Assembly: GCA_029570375.1 (NCBI GenBank)
Contig: JAKPXB010000007.1
Location: 1-43,727, forward strand
Length of the DNA: 43,727 bases
Reading direction: 5' to 3'
DNA from: Bacillota bacterium
Lineage (GTDB): Bacteria; Bacillota; Clostridia; Saccharofermentanales; DTU023
This document shows, one piece after another, positions 31,350 to 39,563 of this stretch. Made by a program: the position numbers and the translations under genes. Below the pieces are notes generated by a model that saw only the letters and a program-made list of their open reading frames with translations, made no database searches and had not been told where the DNA came from. Position 1 is the stretch's first letter. Each line of letters opens with the position of its first letter.

Positions 31350-31898
31350 ATGGACAACGAGTTAATCAAAAAACAATTGACAGACGCAGTCGAAGAGCTG
31401 ATCAAAGAAGCCCGCTATTCCAGGCCGGGCGACATCTTCGTTCTCGGGTGCAGTACGAGTGAAGTCCTCGGACTGCGCATCGGGAAGGGTTCAAGCCAGG
31501 AAGCCGGCTCCCTCATCATCAGCACTTTGATCCCGCTGATCAAAGCGTACGGCTTCTTCCTGGCCGTACAGGGGTGTGAACATATCAACCGGTCACTTGT
31601 GGTCGAGCGTGTCGTGATGCTCCGCGATCAGCTCGAAGAAGTCAACGTCATCCCCGCACTTCACGCAGGAGGCGCGTGCTCAGTCGCCGCTTACGAACAA
31701 TTTGTCGACCCTGTCGTGGTGGAGCATATTACCGGAACGCTCGGAATGGATATCGGTGATACGGAAATCGGCATGCATATCAGACACGTGCAGCGCCCCG
31801 TCAGGCTGGCGGTGCGTCAGATCGGCGAAGCGAGAGTCACTTCCCTGATGTACCGGCCGAAACTGATCGGCGGGGAGCGCGCCCGCCACATGAAATAA
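31350..31898 (+). CDS. ywlG: YwlG / TIGR01440 (UPF0340) family protein
   Basis: The 182-residue frame matches the conserved Bacillota family UPF0340. Motifs are a GDIFVLGCSTSEVLGLRIGKGSS segment, a GFFLAVQGCEHINRSLVVER block, VNVIPALHAGGACSVAAYE, and the C-terminal GDTEIGMHIRHVQRPVRL. The role is not known to me; conserved Cys and His residues hint at metal or substrate binding. GGGAG precedes the ATG. It follows the TetR gene on the same strand, but that adjacency probably has no functional meaning. Confidence 0.9.
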   Translation: MDNELIKKQLTDAVEELIKEARYSRPGDIFVLGCSTSEVLGLRIGKGSSQEAGSLIISTLIPLIKAYGFFLAVQGCEHINRSLVVERVVMLRDQLEEVNVIPALHAGGACSVAAYEQFVDPVVVEHITGTLGMDIGDTEIGMHIRHVQRPVRLAVRQIGEARVTSLMYRPKLIGGERARHMK

Positions 31899-32224: not shown

Positions 32225-34066
32225 ATGGGATTGCTGAACGAGAAAATAAAGGAAGTACTGCAGTCGCTGATACCTGTCACTGTCTTTGTGCTCTTTTTGC
32301 ACTTCACGGTTACCCCTCTGTCCGGCATGCAGATCGGACAGTTCCTGCTGGGCGCTTTTCTCCTGCTCATCGGTCTGTCCGTCTTCCTTGTCGGAGTCGA
32401 CCTCGGGGCGACGCCGATCGGGAAACACAGCGGCAAGGTCATCGTGCGGTCAGGCAGGATGTCCACACTTCTCACCGGCGGTCTGATCCTGGGATTTCTC
32501 ATCTCAATCGCCGAACCGGATCTGCACATTCTCTCACATCAGATCGAAAGACTGACGAACGGCAATCTGACGAAATGGACGATGGTCGCCGTCGTTTCCG
32601 TGGGCGTAGGGCTCCTCGTTATGGCGGGATTCTGGCGCATCGTCAAGCAGATCAGGATCCGCTATCTGCTGTGGGCAGTTTACGGAATTATTTTGCTTCT
32701 GGCCTGCTTCTGCCGCCCTATCCTCCATGATTTCGCTTTTGACGCCTCCGGAGCGACAACCGGCGCCATCACGACTCCATTCGTACTCGCGCTCGCCGCC
32801 GGGGTCGCCAAACTGACCACATCAAAGAGCGAAGACGCCCGCGATCAGTTCGGCCTCGTCGGGTACGCGTCAGCGGGTGCGATCGCGGCTGTTCTGGCCA
32901 TGGGAGTGATCCGGCGTGCCGGCGCCGTCAGCGCGCCGCCTGAGCCCTCATTCGCCCCCCTCTCCCGGCTCTTTGAGTCATTCTTCGCGGTCGCTCCTTC
33001 TTCTCTGCGCGATTCGCTGCTGAGTGTCGCGCCACTCGTCGCTGTTTTCTTTCTTCTGCAGATCAGTACGCTGAAACTGAGAAAACGCGAATCAACGCGC
33101 ATCTATCTGGGCATGCTGTTCTGTTATGTGGGGCTCGCCCTGTTCCTGACGGGCGTCATGGGGGGCTTCATGTCGACAGGCCACCTGTTGGGATCGAGGC
33201 TCGTCGCGCTCGACAAACGCTGGCTGACAACACTCGCCGCCTTTTTTCTCGGGCTGGTCACTGTCATCGCCGAGCCAGCTGTGCAGGTTCTGACTCAATC
33301 GATAGAAGAAGTGACGGAAGGGATGATCCTGCGCAAGGTAGTCCTCGTGTTTCTCTCGATCGGTGTCGCCTTTGCCGTCATGCTGTCGGTCATCCGGATC
33401 TACACGCCGGGCCTTCAACTGTGGCACTTCCTGCTTCCGGGTTATTTCCTCATCATGATCATGAGTTATTTCACCCCGGACATTTTTCTCGGTATCGCGT
33501 TTGACGCGGGCGGTGTTGCCTCCGGACCGATGACGGCGACTTTTATCCTATCTTTCACACAGGGAATCGCGGCGGGAACTCCGGGGGCTGACCTCCTTCT
33601 CGACGGGTTCGGTGTCATCGCGCTGGTGGCGATGGCGCCTCTGATTACCCTGCAATTCCTCGGTCTGGTTTCAGTCATCCGAACCGGGAGACAGCGGAAA
33701 CGGCAGCTGATGTCAGCAGGAATACCCGCCATTGAACACGAGCTAGCGGCTAAAGGATCGGAACCCGACGGCCTGACACAGAATGAGGAATTCGATGAGC
33801 TGTCTTCTTCGCTCGGGGGTGAAGAGGCGCTGGCCGCTCTGGGGACCAATGGGGAAGACAGCTATCCGATCGCGGACGCTTCCGAGGCAGATGGAAAAGC
33901 ACCCGAAGAACCCGCGGGGGAAGCCGCCTGTTCCGGGACGGACGACAGGGAGACGGCGGCCGGCGGGAACAGCTGGACGGACGGCGCGGACGGCGCGCAA
34001 ATTGAAGATGAATTAGATTTTTTGGAGGAAGACAGTCATGCAGATGAACGAGCCGCCTTTGACTGA
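32225..34066 (+). CDS. DUF1538-family membrane protein, internally duplicated
   Basis: The 613-residue protein contains two homologous membrane halves, about residues 1-235 and 260-485, each with about six hydrophobic helices. The repeats share GFLISIAEPDLHILSHQIE with LVTVIAEPAVQVLTQSIEEVT, and AFDASGATTGAITTPFVLALAAG with AFDAGGVASGPMTATFILSFTQG. The acidic AEP and small-residue FDxxG motifs look like a transport or gating core. The final 125 residues are hydrophilic, acidic and Gly-rich, likely cytoplasmic. Single DUF1538 proteins are often encoded beside PII-like proteins; here the next gene overlaps by 29 bases and encodes three such domains. Ion or small-molecule transport is a reasonable guess, but no substrate is known. 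A GAGGGGAG ribosome site precedes the ATG. Confidence 0.85.
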   Translation: MGLLNEKIKEVLQSLIPVTVFVLFLHFTVTPLSGMQIGQFLLGAFLLLIGLSVFLVGVDLGATPIGKHSGKVIVRSGRMSTLLTGGLILGFLISIAEPDLHILSHQIERLTNGNLTKWTMVAVVSVGVGLLVMAGFWRIVKQIRIRYLLWAVYGIILLLACFCRPILHDFAFDASGATTGAITTPFVLALAAGVAKLTTSKSEDARDQFGLVGYASAGAIAAVLAMGVIRRAGAVSAPPEPSFAPLSRLFESFFAVAPSSLRDSLLSVAPLVAVFFLLQISTLKLRKRESTRIYLGMLFCYVGLALFLTGVMGGFMSTGHLLGSRLVALDKRWLTTLAAFFLGLVTVIAEPAVQVLTQSIEEVTEGMILRKVVLVFLSIGVAFAVMLSVIRIYTPGLQLWHFLLPGYFLIMIMSYFTPDIFLGIAFDAGGVASGPMTATFILSFTQGIAAGTPGADLLLDGFGVIALVAMAPLITLQFLGLVSVIRTGRQRKRQLMSAGIPAIEHELAAKGSEPDGLTQNEEFDELSSSLGGEEALAALGTNGEDSYPIADASEADGKAPEEPAGEAACSGTDDRETAAGGNSWTDGADGAQIEDELDFLEEDSHADERAAFD

Positions 34067-35210
34067 CCGCAGGGATAAGACAAAAGAACACGAAACATAC
34101 TCTCTCCTAATCATGATCTCAACCCCCAAAAAGGCTGAAGACATGGCGAACTATGCCCTCGCGAACGGAGCGGCGGGCGCGTTCTTCAGTCACGCCCGCG
34201 GCACGCTTCCGGGCCATATTCTCGCCATGCTGGGACTCGCGGGGGTCAGACGGGAACTCGTCGTGCTTGCCGTCCCCCACAGGAGAGCCGGTTCCCTTCT
34301 TGAGGAAATCAATGAGACGTTCAACCTCAAAGAGAAGATGGGAGGCATTGCCTATCTTCTCGATCTGGAACATCCGCTCAGACGGCCGGCTGAGACAGAC
34401 AGCGATCCCTATTCCGTCGTCGCGGCAATTGTGAACGAAGGCGAAGGCGAAGAGGTCGTCGAACACGTCCGCCAAAGCCACCCCGTCGGCGCGTCTATTC
34501 TCCAGGCGTCCGGATCAGCCAATCACAGCCGGAAAACTTTCGATTTCGAGATTGTGGAGAGCAAAGAGATTGTTCTGATCATCACAAAAAAACACCTCTG
34601 CAAAAAAGTTTATCAGACTATTCACGACGCCCTTCGCACGGAACTCCCGGGGCGCGGAATCATCTTCTCGACCGACATAGGCGCGGTCGCCGGCATCCTT
34701 GAGAAAGATCAGGAACTCCGATCGCGGGAGGAATACCCCGGAGGCGGATACGCGGACGCTGAACAGTACCCGGAAGATTCATACCATCCGCGAGACCGGC
34801 ATTCGGAAGACGGGTACGAGGATGCCGAACCGGATGACGCCGGGGTACTCCGGGAAGGAGAACCAGGCAGGCCAGGTAAAACGGCGGATCAAGGCGAGTC
34901 GTATCAGGTCGCTGTTTTAGCGCTCGTTGACCGCGGACACACGGAAGAGATTGTCCGGCTGTCAGAAGAAGCGGGCGGCCATGGCGCAACGATTATGCGC
35001 GGTCGGTTCGCCTCGCATAAGAGCCACGGTTTTTTCAGTCATTCGGATGAAACGGAGAAAGAAGCGGTTATCATGATCGCGCCGAGGGAAACAGCCCGGA
35101 CCGTTCTGCACCGGCTGCAGCAGTACGCCGCGGAACACAGAGAGAGACCGGTGATCCTGACCTGGGTGTGCGTCCACTCATTCGACAAATTCTCTTACGG
35201 GACAGTCTGA
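34038..35210 (+). CDS. Protein with three PII-like domains, partner of DUF1538
   Basis: Three stretches resemble the PII/CutA-like ferredoxin-type fold: residues about 21-112 (YSLLIMISTPKKAEDM... GAAGAFF, HARGT), about 125-222 (YSVVAAIVNEGEGEEVV... GASILQ, KEIVLIITKK) and about 288-385 (YQVAVLALVDRG... GATIMRGR, KEAVIMIAP). Each has the strand-helix-GA-strand pattern, with a basic or Gly/Ser loop before the last strands. A Tyr/Glu/Asp/Pro-rich linker (about 223-285) separates domains 2 and 3. PII proteins normally form trimers of single domains, so one chain could imitate a whole trimer. GGAGGA lies before the ATG, and the gene overlaps the end of the DUF1538 gene. Regulating that membrane protein by binding a nucleotide is the obvious hypothesis, not shown here. 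Confidence 0.75.
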   Translation: MQMNEPPLTDRRDKTKEHETYSLLIMISTPKKAEDMANYALANGAAGAFFSHARGTLPGHILAMLGLAGVRRELVVLAVPHRRAGSLLEEINETFNLKEKMGGIAYLLDLEHPLRRPAETDSDPYSVVAAIVNEGEGEEVVEHVRQSHPVGASILQASGSANHSRKTFDFEIVESKEIVLIITKKHLCKKVYQTIHDALRTELPGRGIIFSTDIGAVAGILEKDQELRSREEYPGGGYADAEQYPEDSYHPRDRHSEDGYEDAEPDDAGVLREGEPGRPGKTADQGESYQVAVLALVDRGHTEEIVRLSEEAGGHGATIMRGRFASHKSHGFFSHSDETEKEAVIMIAPRETARTVLHRLQQYAAEHRERPVILTWVCVHSFDKFSYGTV

Positions 35211-35240: not shown

Positions 35241-36518
35241 TTAAGACTGCGGGGAAATGAAATACTGGAAGACGGCATTGGCCACCGCCTGGCCGATATC
35301 GGCTCTCCCTTCATCGGACGCGAGAATCGCGCGGTCGCCTTCGTTCGAAAGATAACCGGGGACGAAGGACACGGAGACATAGTTTGTGAGGCGGAGAAGT
35401 GCGAGATCTTTTTCTTCGCCCGCTTCGATTCCCCCCTCCGGTTTCAGGGACGGCACCATACGGGAGAGATTGGTTTTCAGCAGCTGTGCCAGACTCGCGC
35501 GCCCCTTCGTATCAATATTGGTGTAGTTGGGCGGGAGTTTCATGGGATTCTGATCGACAGCGTAGCCGTTATTTGTATCCGCGACGAAATCCGCTGACAT
35601 GTAATAGGTGTGCGATCCGTGGCGCGACGTGTCGCTGTCATTCCCAAGCGAAAGATTGATGAGAAGAATATCGCTGTACTGCGATTCAATGTCGTACAGT
35701 ATCCGCAGCTGCGGGGGCGTGCCGATCGAGCCGAACAGTCCGCGCCCTCCGGAGGCGGGGCTGTTCTGATTTATACGGATAACATCCCCCATGAGAAGCC
35801 TCAGATTGTCGATCACCGATGTGAGATAACCGGCCTGATCCGCCGCGTCCCGATACCGGATCAGGGAAATATCCGCAGCGGCCGCGACCCTCGAGAACAG
35901 CGAATACTCTTCATCCGTCGTACGTGTCAGCACAACCGTGGCCCCGAAACGGGTAAGCGCTTTTTCCGCTTCCGTCGCGATGCTGAGGAGAAGAGATTTC
36001 TCTGTCAGCGCTTCCTCCCCTGCGCCCCATACAGCGCCGGTCTCCGCACCTCCGCGCGAGGCGTCGATGATCACGGTGACCCCTTTCAAAGGCTGCGCGG
36101 CCGCGGAACGGGACGCGTAATCGCTCAGATTCGCGTCATAAAGCTTCGGGATCGACAGCTCCGCCGGCCAGATCCGCAGCGCTTCCTTAACAGGCGGAAG
36201 CCTGTCCGGGTCGTTATCGGTGACAGGCAGCTCGATTTTCTCAACTGCTGTCGTCACGGGAGGATCTGTGTGTTCTTCCGTACTGTCAATGCCCGTCGAG
36301 CTGCCCGGTGTGTCAGGTGATGTGCCCTCCGGTGTTTTGACACTGTTTTCAGGCGGCTGATCCGGTGTTTTCACACCATCCGGCAAACTCGTACTGATCT
36401 GGAACCGCTTGGCGCCGCGCACCGGTTTCGGGAGAACGCCGCGAAATGAAAGCAGGAGCAACAGACTGCTGATGATCAGCAGAACAAATACATTCCGCGC
36501 GCTCTTCTTCCCTGTCAA
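35241..36518 (-). CDS. Amidase_3-like cell-wall protein lacking catalytic residues
   Basis: A membrane or signal segment (about residues 10-25) is followed by a Pro/Thr-rich linker to about 140, then a domain that follows the N-acetylmuramoyl-L-alanine amidase (AmiA/CwlV) fold: VTVIIDASRGGAETGAVWG, EKSLLLSIATEAEKAL, VVLTRTTDEEYSLFSR and PGYLSNEGDRAIL. The zinc and catalytic residues are mostly gone. The first histidine is Arg155, the second is Leu289, and the catalytic glutamate site is Val386; only Glu173 remains. An insertion of about 60 residues (212-280) precedes the third motif. It is probably non-enzymatic, perhaps a regulator or a glycan-binding protein. It begins three bases after glmM, so it belongs to the cdaA-glmM operon. 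Confidence 0.78.
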   Translation of the reverse strand: MTGKKSARNVFVLLIISSLLLLLSFRGVLPKPVRGAKRFQISTSLPDGVKTPDQPPENSVKTPEGTSPDTPGSSTGIDSTEEHTDPPVTTAVEKIELPVTDNDPDRLPPVKEALRIWPAELSIPKLYDANLSDYASRSAAAQPLKGVTVIIDASRGGAETGAVWGAGEEALTEKSLLLSIATEAEKALTRFGATVVLTRTTDEEYSLFSRVAAAADISLIRYRDAADQAGYLTSVIDNLRLLMGDVIRINQNSPASGGRGLFGSIGTPPQLRILYDIESQYSDILLINLSLGNDSDTSRHGSHTYYMSADFVADTNNGYAVDQNPMKLPPNYTNIDTKGRASLAQLLKTNLSRMVPSLKPEGGIEAGEEKDLALLRLTNYVSVSFVPGYLSNEGDRAILASDEGRADIGQAVANAVFQYFISPQS

Positions 36519-36521
36519 GCG

Positions 36522-37895
36522 TCAGTCCCTTTCACCCGGGGCGCAAACTGCCTCGATCACAGCGCACAGATCTCCCGCCAGCGCGTTAATCTCGCACTCG
36601 TCTTTTCCTTCAATCATCACTCTCACAAGCGGTTCCGTACCGGATTTCCGGACGAGAACCCGCCCGTTCCGGCCGAGGATCTCCTCCTTTTCGGCGATGG
36701 CGGCCAGAAGGTCGGGATGGTTCATGACATACTGTTTCTTTTCATCGGAGACGCGGACATTCACAGTAATCTGAGGAAGCTTCCGGATGATCTTCCTCAT
36801 TTCGCTGAGCCGGGCGCTGCCGCCCTCGTTGCGAATGGCTCCGAGAAGGCGGATGGCGGTGAGCACGCCGTCTCCCGTCGTCGAGTCGTCCAGAAGGATA
36901 ATATGTCCGCTCTGTTCTCCTCCGATCGCGTATCCGTCAGCCAGCATGCGTTCCAGGACGTAGCGGTCGCCTACCTGTGTCCGGATCAATTCATATCCGG
37001 CGGAGGCAGCCGCGAGTTCGAGCCCGAGATTGCTCATCACGGTCGCGACGATCGTCTTCTTTTTCAGCTTCCCGAACCGGTCGAGGTCACGCGCCAGAAT
37101 CGCGAGCATGACATCGCCGTCGCAGACCTCTCCGCTGTCATCGACGGCTATCAGGCGATCGGCATCGCCGTCAAATGCCAGCCCGATGTCCGCACCGTGT
37201 TCACACACGGCGCGCGATAGATTCCCGATATGCGTCGAACCGCAATCGCGGTTGATATTATATCCGTCGGGGTCGGCTCCGATTGTCTGAACGTCGGCGC
37301 CTAAATCTCTGAACAGCCTTGGCGCGACAACAGAACTCGCTCCATGCGCACAGTCAACGACAATTTTCATACCCGAGAGGTCAAGCCCGGCGATCGACTG
37401 AAGATGTTCCCGGTACTCATCCGCGCCCTCCTTATAGTGGATGAGCCTGCCCACCGCTTCCCCGGTCGGGCGTTCATAATCAAGAAAGGAGGGATCGCTG
37501 ATCCGCGCTTCAATGGCATCCTCCGTTTCATCGGGGAGCTTAAAACCGCTGCCCGAGAAGAACTTGATGCCGTTGTATTCAAAAGAGTTATGCGACGCCG
37601 AAATCATCACGCCGGCATCAGCCCCGAGTTTTCTGGTCAGCCACGCCACGCCGGGTGTCGGGATGACCCCAACGTACAGGACATCCGCGCCGGCGGACGT
37701 GATGCCGGCGATCAGAGCCGATCCCAGCATGCCGCACGAAATACGCGTATCTTCGCCGACAACAAGCGTCGGTTTGTGGTGTGTTTCCTCAGTCAGAACA
37801 TGCGCCCCCGCCATTCCGAGATAGAAAGCCAAATCAGGCGTCAAATCGCGGTTCGCGACTCCACGCACACCATCCGTTCCAAACATTCTAGCCAT
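36522..37895 (-). CDS. glmM: Phosphoglucosamine mutase
   Basis: GlmM converts glucosamine-6-phosphate to glucosamine-1-phosphate for UDP-GlcNAc and peptidoglycan synthesis. The 457-residue frame has the full set of motifs: MFGTDGVRGVAN at the start, the phosphoserine loop GVMISASHNSFEYNGIKFF, the metal loop LAFDGDADR, the sugar-binding IGGEQSGHII and the phosphate-binding VRKSGTEPLVRVMIEG. It lies 81 bases downstream of the diadenylate cyclase gene, the standard cdaA-cdaR-glmM order, and GlmM is known to restrain CdaA activity in other Bacillota. AGGA precedes the ATG. Confidence 0.97.
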   Translation of the reverse strand: MARMFGTDGVRGVANRDLTPDLAFYLGMAGAHVLTEETHHKPTLVVGEDTRISCGMLGSALIAGITSAGADVLYVGVIPTPGVAWLTRKLGADAGVMISASHNSFEYNGIKFFSGSGFKLPDETEDAIEARISDPSFLDYERPTGEAVGRLIHYKEGADEYREHLQSIAGLDLSGMKIVVDCAHGASSVVAPRLFRDLGADVQTIGADPDGYNINRDCGSTHIGNLSRAVCEHGADIGLAFDGDADRLIAVDDSGEVCDGDVMLAILARDLDRFGKLKKKTIVATVMSNLGLELAAASAGYELIRTQVGDRYVLERMLADGYAIGGEQSGHIILLDDSTTGDGVLTAIRLLGAIRNEGGSARLSEMRKIIRKLPQITVNVRVSDEKKQYVMNHPDLLAAIAEKEEILGRNGRVLVRKSGTEPLVRVMIEGKDECEINALAGDLCAVIEAVCAPGERD

Positions 37896-37976
37896 AGCTA
37901 ATTCCTCCCATCCTGTCAGACACCCAATAAAACACGTCTATTGCAAACGGCCAATTCTCTCCGTGCGGAGAAACAT

Positions 37977-39563
37977 TCAGGGTGTATCGGAAATTCTTTC
38001 GTAGACATTTACTGTTACCGACACAGGCAGCAGTAATTCAGTTTTCGTGTAGAGCAATGTCTCTGTGTCAACTTTAACCGGCAGCTGGACGATGCCTGCT
38101 CTGTTGACTTCGCTCACATCAATATAGGCAGCGATCTTCCCAGGCGCTATGTCAGCGAGCACCTGCTGTCTCCCGCGGAGTGTCACCTGAACATTGGCGA
38201 CAGGGAAACTCTGGATTCCAAATCCGCGTTCATGCGCTTTTTCAAGGCCGTAGTGAGCAAGCGGGACAATGAACGACTTTGTTGTGACGGGGTTGACTGT
38301 CACCTGGACAAACACCCACATAAAGCAAGCAATAACAATCGAGAGAATCGCGAGTCCCATGCGCTGACGGCGCGAAAGCATCGAACCGATGCGCCTGTTT
38401 CTCAGCACCTTGTGCTGTCTCTTGCCGATACTCTCTTCGCCGTTTTCATTCTCGTCGAAGATGACCGGGGCTCCCCCATTGGCCGCTGCGTCTGATGGCG
38501 CCTCCGCCTCATCTGCTTTGTCATAATCTTTTTCGACATGCGCCGCGCCGGGACGCGAGTCCGCTTTGTGACCAGGAGAGAGAATCTCCTCTCCGTCGTC
38601 ATCGCGATCCGGTGATTCATCAGCCGTTCCGTTCCGGAAAAATCTCCTGAACCAGCCTCTGACTGTCCTGTCCTCTTCTCCCGCCGACGCGCCGAGCAGG
38701 CGGTGAAGTTGTGTCCGCAGAGCGTCCACATTGCCGAGGACATGGAGAACGCCGTCGATGGCGAGGCTGATCGTCCCCTTCTCTTCAGAGACGACTACGG
38801 CGACAGCGTCACCCATTTCACTCGCTCCGACTGCCGCGCGGTGGCGCAGACCGAAATCGCGTCTCAGGTGGTAATTATCCGACAACGGGATATGAACCCG
38901 GGCGGCTGCCACGCGGCCGTCCCGAATGATCACCGCACCGTCGTGAAGCGGCGACCCCGTATAAAAGATCTGCCGAAGCAGCGCGGAAGAGACCGTCGCG
39001 TCAACGCGCACCGCGTTCTCCTGCTCATGCAGTTCACCCAGTTTTGTATTTCGCTCGATAATAATGAGCGCTCCCGTTCTGGTACTGCTCATCCACTCGC
39101 ACGCGTTGACAATATTCTCTATCATCTGATGAACACCGGGATGCGACACATGGCTGTCCCATGTGCCATATGTCAGACGGTTGCGCCCGACCGCTTCAAG
39201 CGTGCGCCGCAGCTCGGGCTGAAAGATGACGATAATGGCGATCGCCAGAATTGAAATCGTGCGGTTGAGCATAAATCCAATCGTGTTCAGTCCGATCGCG
39301 CTTGAGACAAAAGCGAAAACAACGATCAGGATGATCCCTCGAAGCAGCTGCCATGCGCGCGAATCTCTGAGGAGCAACAGAATAAAATACACGACAAAAG
39401 CGGTGATGGCGATATCAAAGAGGGCGACCGCCATATCAATCGGCCCGCCCAGGTACAGCAGGCCGTCTGAAAGGCTGTAACGCAGTTCATTGAAAAACTC
39501 GCCAATTTTCGAAAATAAACCAGTTGCCAGAACCAAAAGTATGGGCTCCTCCGCATTGAACAT
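37977..39563 (-). CDS. cdaA: Fused diadenylate cyclase (CdaA) - YbbR (CdaR) protein
   Basis: CdaA makes cyclic di-AMP from two ATP at the membrane, controlling potassium, osmolyte and wall homeostasis. Residues 45-115 hold about three membrane helices. The cyclase domain (about 145-290) shows the paired active-site motifs LHDGAVII (about 206-213) and GLRHRAAVGAS (about 238-248). A long, acidic, low-complexity linker (about 292-400) is followed by a fourth membrane helix (about 403-420) and one extracellular YbbR domain (about 421-528). In most Bacillota CdaA and YbbR-containing CdaR are separate proteins that bind each other; here they form one 528-residue chain. The annotated ATG lacks a ribosome binding site, and a downstream TTG following GGAGG inside the frame is an alternative start. 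glmM follows. Confidence 0.9.
   Translation of the reverse strand: MFNAEEPILLVLATGLFSKIGEFFNELRYSLSDGLLYLGGPIDMAVALFDIAITAFVVYFILLLLRDSRAWQLLRGIILIVVFAFVSSAIGLNTIGFMLNRTISILAIAIIVIFQPELRRTLEAVGRNRLTYGTWDSHVSHPGVHQMIENIVNACEWMSSTRTGALIIIERNTKLGELHEQENAVRVDATVSSALLRQIFYTGSPLHDGAVIIRDGRVAAARVHIPLSDNYHLRRDFGLRHRAAVGASEMGDAVAVVVSEEKGTISLAIDGVLHVLGNVDALRTQLHRLLGASAGEEDRTVRGWFRRFFRNGTADESPDRDDDGEEILSPGHKADSRPGAAHVEKDYDKADEAEAPSDAAANGGAPVIFDENENGEESIGKRQHKVLRNRRIGSMLSRRQRMGLAILSIVIACFMWVFVQVTVNPVTTKSFIVPLAHYGLEKAHERGFGIQSFPVANVQVTLRGRQQVLADIAPGKIAAYIDVSEVNRAGIVQLPVKVDTETLLYTKTELLLPVSVTVNVYERISDTP

Follow-up and report, generated by a model that had tools for sequence, protein, structure and literature searches.

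A PII-like protein of three unlike domains encoded beside a DUF1538 membrane protein of the UmpAB family in Clostridia

The DUF1538 gene and the overlapping gene for a PII-like protein

The window, by which we mean the whole stretch of DNA that was analysed (43,727 nucleotides of contig JAKPXB010000007.1, from a Bacillota bacterium of the order Saccharofermentanales), carries on its forward strand a gene for a membrane protein of 613 residues (32225 to 34066) of the fused UmpA-UmpB antiporter type. The protein matched Pfam PF07556 in two stretches with an E-value of 4.9e-123, and its two DUF1538 repeats are made up of residues 8 to 229 (32246 to 32911) and residues 262 to 482 (33008 to 33670). 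From about residue 500 to residue 613 it ends in an acidic low-complexity tail of roughly 115 residues (33722 to 34063), in the place where the relatives described below as layout B have a PII-like domain. The length of this tail varies widely across the window's genus, and the idea that it is a remnant of that domain was dropped for lack of evidence, as it gave no profile match. When scored against the NCBIfam models for UmpA (NF041627) and UmpB (NF041628) the protein reached 159.6 bits against a cut-off of 490 and 134.5 bits against a cut-off of 500, respectively, and since both equivalog cut-offs were missed the transported ion may differ. The initial annotation had proposed a regulated transporter of unknown substrate. 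The second half of this description is now partly answered, because DUF1538 is the UmpAB family and in Halomonas zhaodongensis the hetero-dimeric UmpAB acts as a Na+(Li+,K+)/H+ antiporter (PMC5484666), so that the function is not wholly unknown. Antiport activity has been shown only for the Halomonas UmpAB, and by analogy the protein in the window would exchange a cation for protons. The DUF1538 part had no sequence relative in the PDB. Among solved structures nothing in the match list resembled its fold convincingly; since the PII domain took up that list, this is no sign of a new fold. Upstream of the antiporter gene there are a DUF436 gene and a TetR-type regulator (31350 to 31898, forward strand), which are kept in several genomes of the genus. 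Downstream and convergent to the operon, genes for an amidase, GlmM, and CdaA-YbbR, a diadenylate cyclase, lie on the reverse strand (35241 to 39563), and their place is kept across the window's genus and, outside it, in one g2 genome.

The second gene of the operon (34038 to 35210, forward strand) encodes a PII-like protein of 390 residues; the limits of this open reading frame are exact and it starts with ATG. As had been annotated initially, it overlaps the DUF1538 gene, and the shared bases are the last 29 of the latter (34038 to 34066). Its ribosome-binding site, GGAGG, lies inside the end of the antiporter gene (34024 to 34028), 9 nucleotides before the ATG. The protein has a first PII domain, D1, at residues 21 to 112 (34098 to 34373), whose T-loop reads ARGTLPGHILAMLGLAGVRRE and which is kin to the first domain of the tandem P-II proteins found beside DUF1538 in other Bacillota, and a second, D2, at residues 125 to 222 (34410 to 34703), which is kin to the second domain of those proteins and keeps the B-loop PGRGI. 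An acidic, Tyr-rich disordered linker follows at residues 233 to 287 (34734 to 34898) with a pLDDT of about 41 to 70, and then the third domain, D3, at residues 288 to 385 (34899 to 35192), which is a derived domain of the second type that is without the B-loop but keeps an invariant Arg. Pairwise identity among D1, D2, and D3 within the chain is only 20 to 25%.

That each of these stretches is a PII domain rests on several lines of evidence. The Pfam P-II profile, PF00543, matched the protein with 42.4 bits against a cut-off of 25, in two stretches of which the best, 128 to 218, lies over D2; D3 taken alone gave no Pfam call. When profiles made from single domains were compared by hhalign with a profile of the stand-alone PII proteins linked to DUF1538, D3 matched with a probability of 98.2% and an E-value of 5e-14, and D1 with 96.8% and 3e-10. 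An AlphaFold2 model of the protein, made with 90 relatives, had a pLDDT of 81.8 and a pTM of 0.79 with the linker at low confidence, and its strands and helices follow in PII order at 21 to 109, 125 to 218, and 290 to 384, so that by secondary structure all three domains have the ferredoxin-like beta-alpha-beta-beta-alpha-beta fold; D3 was represented by only 15 rows in the alignment behind this model, as the stand-alone D3 sequences sat on D2. Against solved structures D2 aligned to GlnB/GlnK/GlnZ and D3 to SbtB/CPII/TTHA0516, both with Z of about 10. D1 was absent among the structural alignments listed, and its fold thus rests on the secondary structure of the model and on the profile match. 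When the whole protein was run with phmmer against the PDB, only a spurious low-complexity match of alpha-synuclein to the acidic linker came back, and a profile was needed to find the PII relationship. The model, the structural alignment, and the profile match together rule out that the resemblance of the third region is a chance one. Hence the three PII-like stretches that had been read from the sequence (about 21 to 112, 125 to 222, and 288 to 385) are borne out by profile, by model, and by their conservation in 15 further genomes, and the third region is related to the other two.

Partition of the same domains between genes in relatives

In the survey of related loci we write U for a DUF1538 repeat, P for a PII-like domain, and a square bracket for one gene. 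In 38 genomes of the window's family the antiporter and the PII protein were either both present or both absent; six of the genomes were without both, the few mismatches were truncated contigs, and without truncated contigs the count was 35 to 1. The layout of the window, [UU][D1D2D3] or layout A, was found at 16 loci, namely in the window and in 15 further genomes from two genera. In layout B, [D1D2][UU-D3], the antiporter has D3 as its C-terminal domain (8 loci, two other genera), and in layout C, [UU][D1D2][D3], found at 5 loci in three genera, D3 is a gene of its own. One locus of the family, L061, has D1D2 with no D3 adjoining. Elsewhere in the order, [UU][PP] was the layout of most loci. 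The sister family has a U-D3 fusion on a broken contig (L206, fragmentary), the PP gene of which is on a different contig (L205) and precedes a truncated antiporter there; the family also has a stand-alone third PII domain ahead of the antiporter (L198). In the wider phylum Bacillota, UmpA and UmpB, split or fused, are followed by one PII gene, by two PII genes, or by one tandem PII gene. With few exceptions one, two, or three PII-like domains come next at DUF1538 loci; outside the window's family L146 and L176 had no PII gene at the DUF1538 locus. Two alphaproteobacterial plasmids are annotated by NCBI with DUF1538, DUF1538, and P-II in a row, that is, with a single PII after the pair. Some loci were unusual in other ways. 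An antiporter gene at L112:4501-7504 is followed by two tandem PII genes, which makes four PII domains; the tandem PII proteins at L202:3528-4463 and L210:3003-3956 have an unusually long low-complexity linker between their domains; at L042:513-2234 the first DUF1538 repeat is broken by about 110 residues (profile matches at 8 to 109 and 220 to 283), which is either an insertion or a frame problem; and L145, from a record labelled Caldisericia, has a Bacillota-like DUF1538 and tandem PII operon, by transfer or by mis-binning.

When genes fuse and split and yet one set of domains stays together, this is a classic sign that the parts form one working assembly. Here the same five domains, two DUF1538 repeats and D1, D2, and D3, are partitioned between genes in three ways, and this implies, as far as gene content can tell, that the three PII domains would work together as one assembly and act on the antiporter. 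The fusion of D3 to the antiporter in relatives ties the PII assembly to the membrane protein and is strong, though indirect, evidence that the PII protein and the transporter make contact, and this fusion, together with the near-invariant pairing of the two genes, supports the proposal that the transporter is a regulated one. In an AlphaFold2 model of an antiporter-D3 fusion the fold of D3 was present and no firm docking was seen. In most Bacillota the tandem PP protein consists of two domains and works without D3, so that there is no general need for three domains per chain.

Descent, residue pattern, and proposed assembly of D1, D2, and D3

In a tree of the domains the first domain of the tandem proteins (T1) and D1 fell on one side and the second (T2), D2, and D3 on the other. 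D1 and D2 are thereby orthologous to the two domains of the tandem P-II proteins, and since D3 grouped with T2 and D2 it is a copy of the second-type domain. When all D3 sequences were held together the tree was not rejected, its lnL being 10.4 higher (AU p 0.68, or 0.18 with the sister-family rows), and the U-D3 of the sister family grouped with the D3 of layout B (support 99/82). These tests had about 110 columns and long branches to work with, and they neither prove nor reject that D3 arose only once.

The residues around the pockets differ between the domains. At the base of the T-loop GGTxxxxRGxGxHE is common to stand-alone and T2 domains, as is PGxGIxF at the B-loop. In D1 and D2 the Gly at the T-loop base and the B-loop Gly are kept in 28 to 29 of 29 loci. 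The Arg of D3 is kept in all 29 loci, including 24 of 24 in layouts A and B taken together, and the B-loop Gly of D3 is lost in these same 24 and kept in the five loci of layout C; in D2 that Arg is lost in all 16 loci of layout A. D3 has in addition the conserved motifs GATI(M/H)xxR and FxxFS. A ligand-binding residue pattern identical to that of GlnB or SbtB was present in none of the three domains. Each domain has a T-loop between strands 2 and 3 of its own conserved type, GTxPxxxLxxLGLxxVRRE in D1, GSADHSxKTFDFEI in D2, and (H)xRxxxxxSxGFxxxxGDxEKE in D3. Such a pattern of residues would be expected of a ring whose three seats have specialised, and our guess is that the Arg of D3 reaches the seam of D2. 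The acidic Tyr-rich linker, which had been put forward as a source of asymmetric binding, is present, but it is unlikely to have that role because it varies in sequence and length and is only about 20 residues long in some relatives. It is instead the T-loops and pockets, which differ among the three domains, that make the protein asymmetric.

Few signal transducers are as widespread as the PII proteins, almost all of which act as symmetric homotrimers that normally consist of three separate identical subunits. The initial annotation had suggested that the three domains could build a single-chain pseudo-trimer. By a simple estimate for 390 residues, of which about 292 are ordered, a pTM of 0.74 to 0.78 would be expected if all three domains were tightly fixed, 0.48 to 0.58 if two were fixed, and 0.31 to 0.38 if none was. 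The observed pTM of 0.79 thus indicates that all three domains are in fixed mutual positions, while it says nothing of their geometry. Such a placement is as in a single-chain pseudo-trimer, and the ring itself is what we infer from the PII family. This value and the fact that the domains stay together across the gene partitions give the pseudo-trimer indirect support. We would put at about even odds the specific proposal that this is a natural single-chain PII pseudo-trimer which evolved from a homotrimer and has three functionally different seats, two of them bearing pockets and one pocketless, donating its Arg and belonging with the transporter, and that it has been freely re-partitioned between genes, including assembly in trans of D1-D2 with a D3 borne by the antiporter.

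A different assembly is conceivable in which each domain forms a ring with its own copies, so that three chains would give stacked or linked homotrimers (D1)3, (D2)3, and (D3)3. The protein would then be an ordinary trimer but for the additional rings, and the D3 that relatives carry on the antiporter would form a D3 ring under a trimeric antiporter. The homotrimeric habit of PII proteins speaks for this, the tandem PP proteins of other Bacillota could likewise build two rings, and one D3 per antiporter chain in layout B would suit a transporter that is itself a trimer, as SbtA is in its complex with SbtB (PMC8352866). We regard it as unlikely, as the lone chain folds at a pTM of 0.79, which needs fixed contacts of D1, D2, and D3 within one chain, and as the loss of the pocket of D3 in layouts A and B would leave a D3 homotrimer without any site.

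Somewhat less probable still is that the sensing is done by D1-D2, as in the many PP proteins, and that D3, as a degenerate tether, does no more than keep this sensor close to the antiporter. D3 is indeed the most derived domain, having lost the B-loop in layouts A and B, and it is the piece that moves between partners; but it is kept in 29 loci with its Arg invariant and its two motifs conserved, and the stand-alone D3 of layout C, which keeps the B-loop Gly, cannot tether anything covalently. That the PII protein regulates some other target, for example a cytosolic enzyme, and shares with the antiporter only the conditions under which the operon is expressed appears very improbable to us. 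PII proteins do have many targets, but against this reading stand the near-invariant adjacency across Bacillota and in the alphaproteobacterial plasmids, and the 8 loci, plus the sister family, in which a PII domain is covalently joined to the antiporter.

A proposed dedicated switch on the antiporter and its relation to known systems

The most likely reading, by analogy with known PII systems, is that the PII-like protein is a switch dedicated to the antiporter, on which it would dock, and that it senses a small molecule. In full, and with a probability of roughly 60%, the gene pair would encode a cation/proton antiporter and its own switch, a three-seat ring of unlike domains in which the pockets of D1 and D2 still look usable and D3 closes a seam and stays with the antiporter, throttling being driven by a ligand. 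PII rings have their small-molecule pockets at the seams between neighbouring domains. Here the three seats of such a ring would have become three different domains, and in the window's genus, where D1, D2, the linker, and D3 are in one chain, one polypeptide would build the whole pseudo-trimer. The pockets of D1 and D2 look usable and D3, which appears to have no pocket of its own, may be the neighbour that closes a seam through its invariant Arg, and also the part that stays with the antiporter, to whose C-terminus it is fused in sister genera. Ligand binding would reshape the three unlike T-loops, which would then attach to the cytoplasmic face of the antiporter or let go of it, and this would throttle the exchange of Na+ or K+ for H+ in the manner of SbtB on SbtA. 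The default ligand of the PII fold is an adenine nucleotide, and this, possibly including c-di-AMP, is also our first guess here. The latter is a candidate because in the window's genus the operon has the diadenylate cyclase gene beside it and because a PstA receptor is encoded in the genome; it is only a lead, as the cyclase and its neighbours lie on the opposite strand and, apart from the one g2 genome, keep this place only within the genus.

Regulation of a transporter by a PII protein is known from AmtB-GlnK and SbtA-SbtB; what is new is the single chain of three unlike domains and the movable third domain. In the literature searched, with subscription journals outside its coverage, no paper treated DUF1538 and a P-II family regulator together and no natural single-chain PII trimer was described. 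In a natural ring with three unlike seats, experiments could address which of the seats takes the ligand and which of the T-loops contacts the target; symmetric trimers offer no such access. The survey also ties the poorly studied DUF1538/UmpAB antiporters to a dedicated PII-like switch across Bacillota, and it makes the ligand of a system of pH and sodium homeostasis a direct question.

Among known proteins, PstA/DarA (PF06153), the c-di-AMP receptor, belongs to the same PII-like fold family and acts in the context of ion homeostasis, but it is a separate gene in this genome, and as the protein in the window had no PF06153 match up to an E-value of 10 its identity with PstA/DarA was ruled out. 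The pair of a PII protein and a transporter is also that of AmtB-GlnK, and by sequence as well as by fold D2 comes nearest to GlnB/GlnK; unlike in that system, no AmtB and no canonical PII gene were found in the genome. The search of the genome with PF00543 found nothing and missed the protein in the window as well, being insensitive to this divergent type, whereas a canonical GlnB would match. GlnB has the B-loop GDGK followed by RxR and a Tyr in the T-loop that is uridylylated. The B-loop Lys and the RxR have no counterpart in the consensus of the stand-alone relatives, which reads PG(T/N)GI(A)F and vGi and has no conserved T-loop Tyr, and these differences, with the absence of AmtB from the genome, rule out a canonical nitrogen PII. 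The likeness to UmpAB of Halomonas zhaodongensis is in the pairing of two DUF1538 units, a hetero-dimer there and fused in the window; unlike UmpAB, the protein in the window falls below the UmpA and UmpB cut-offs, and PII is not mentioned in that study (PMC5484666). The tandem P-II proteins of about 222 residues beside fused DUF1538 in most Bacillota have the same gene order and domains orthologous to D1 and D2, but they are without the third. Finally, in SbtA-SbtB a PII-like homotrimer docks on a trimeric transporter and inserts its T-loops into the cytoplasmic cleft of the latter (PMC8352866). As there, a PII-like protein is encoded here for one membrane transporter, and the fold of D3 aligns best with SbtB/CPII. 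SbtB is a one-domain homotrimer on trimeric SbtA (PMC8352866), whereas here three unlike domains are in one chain, the transporter is a DUF1538 protein, and relatives have a PII domain fused to the transporter itself.
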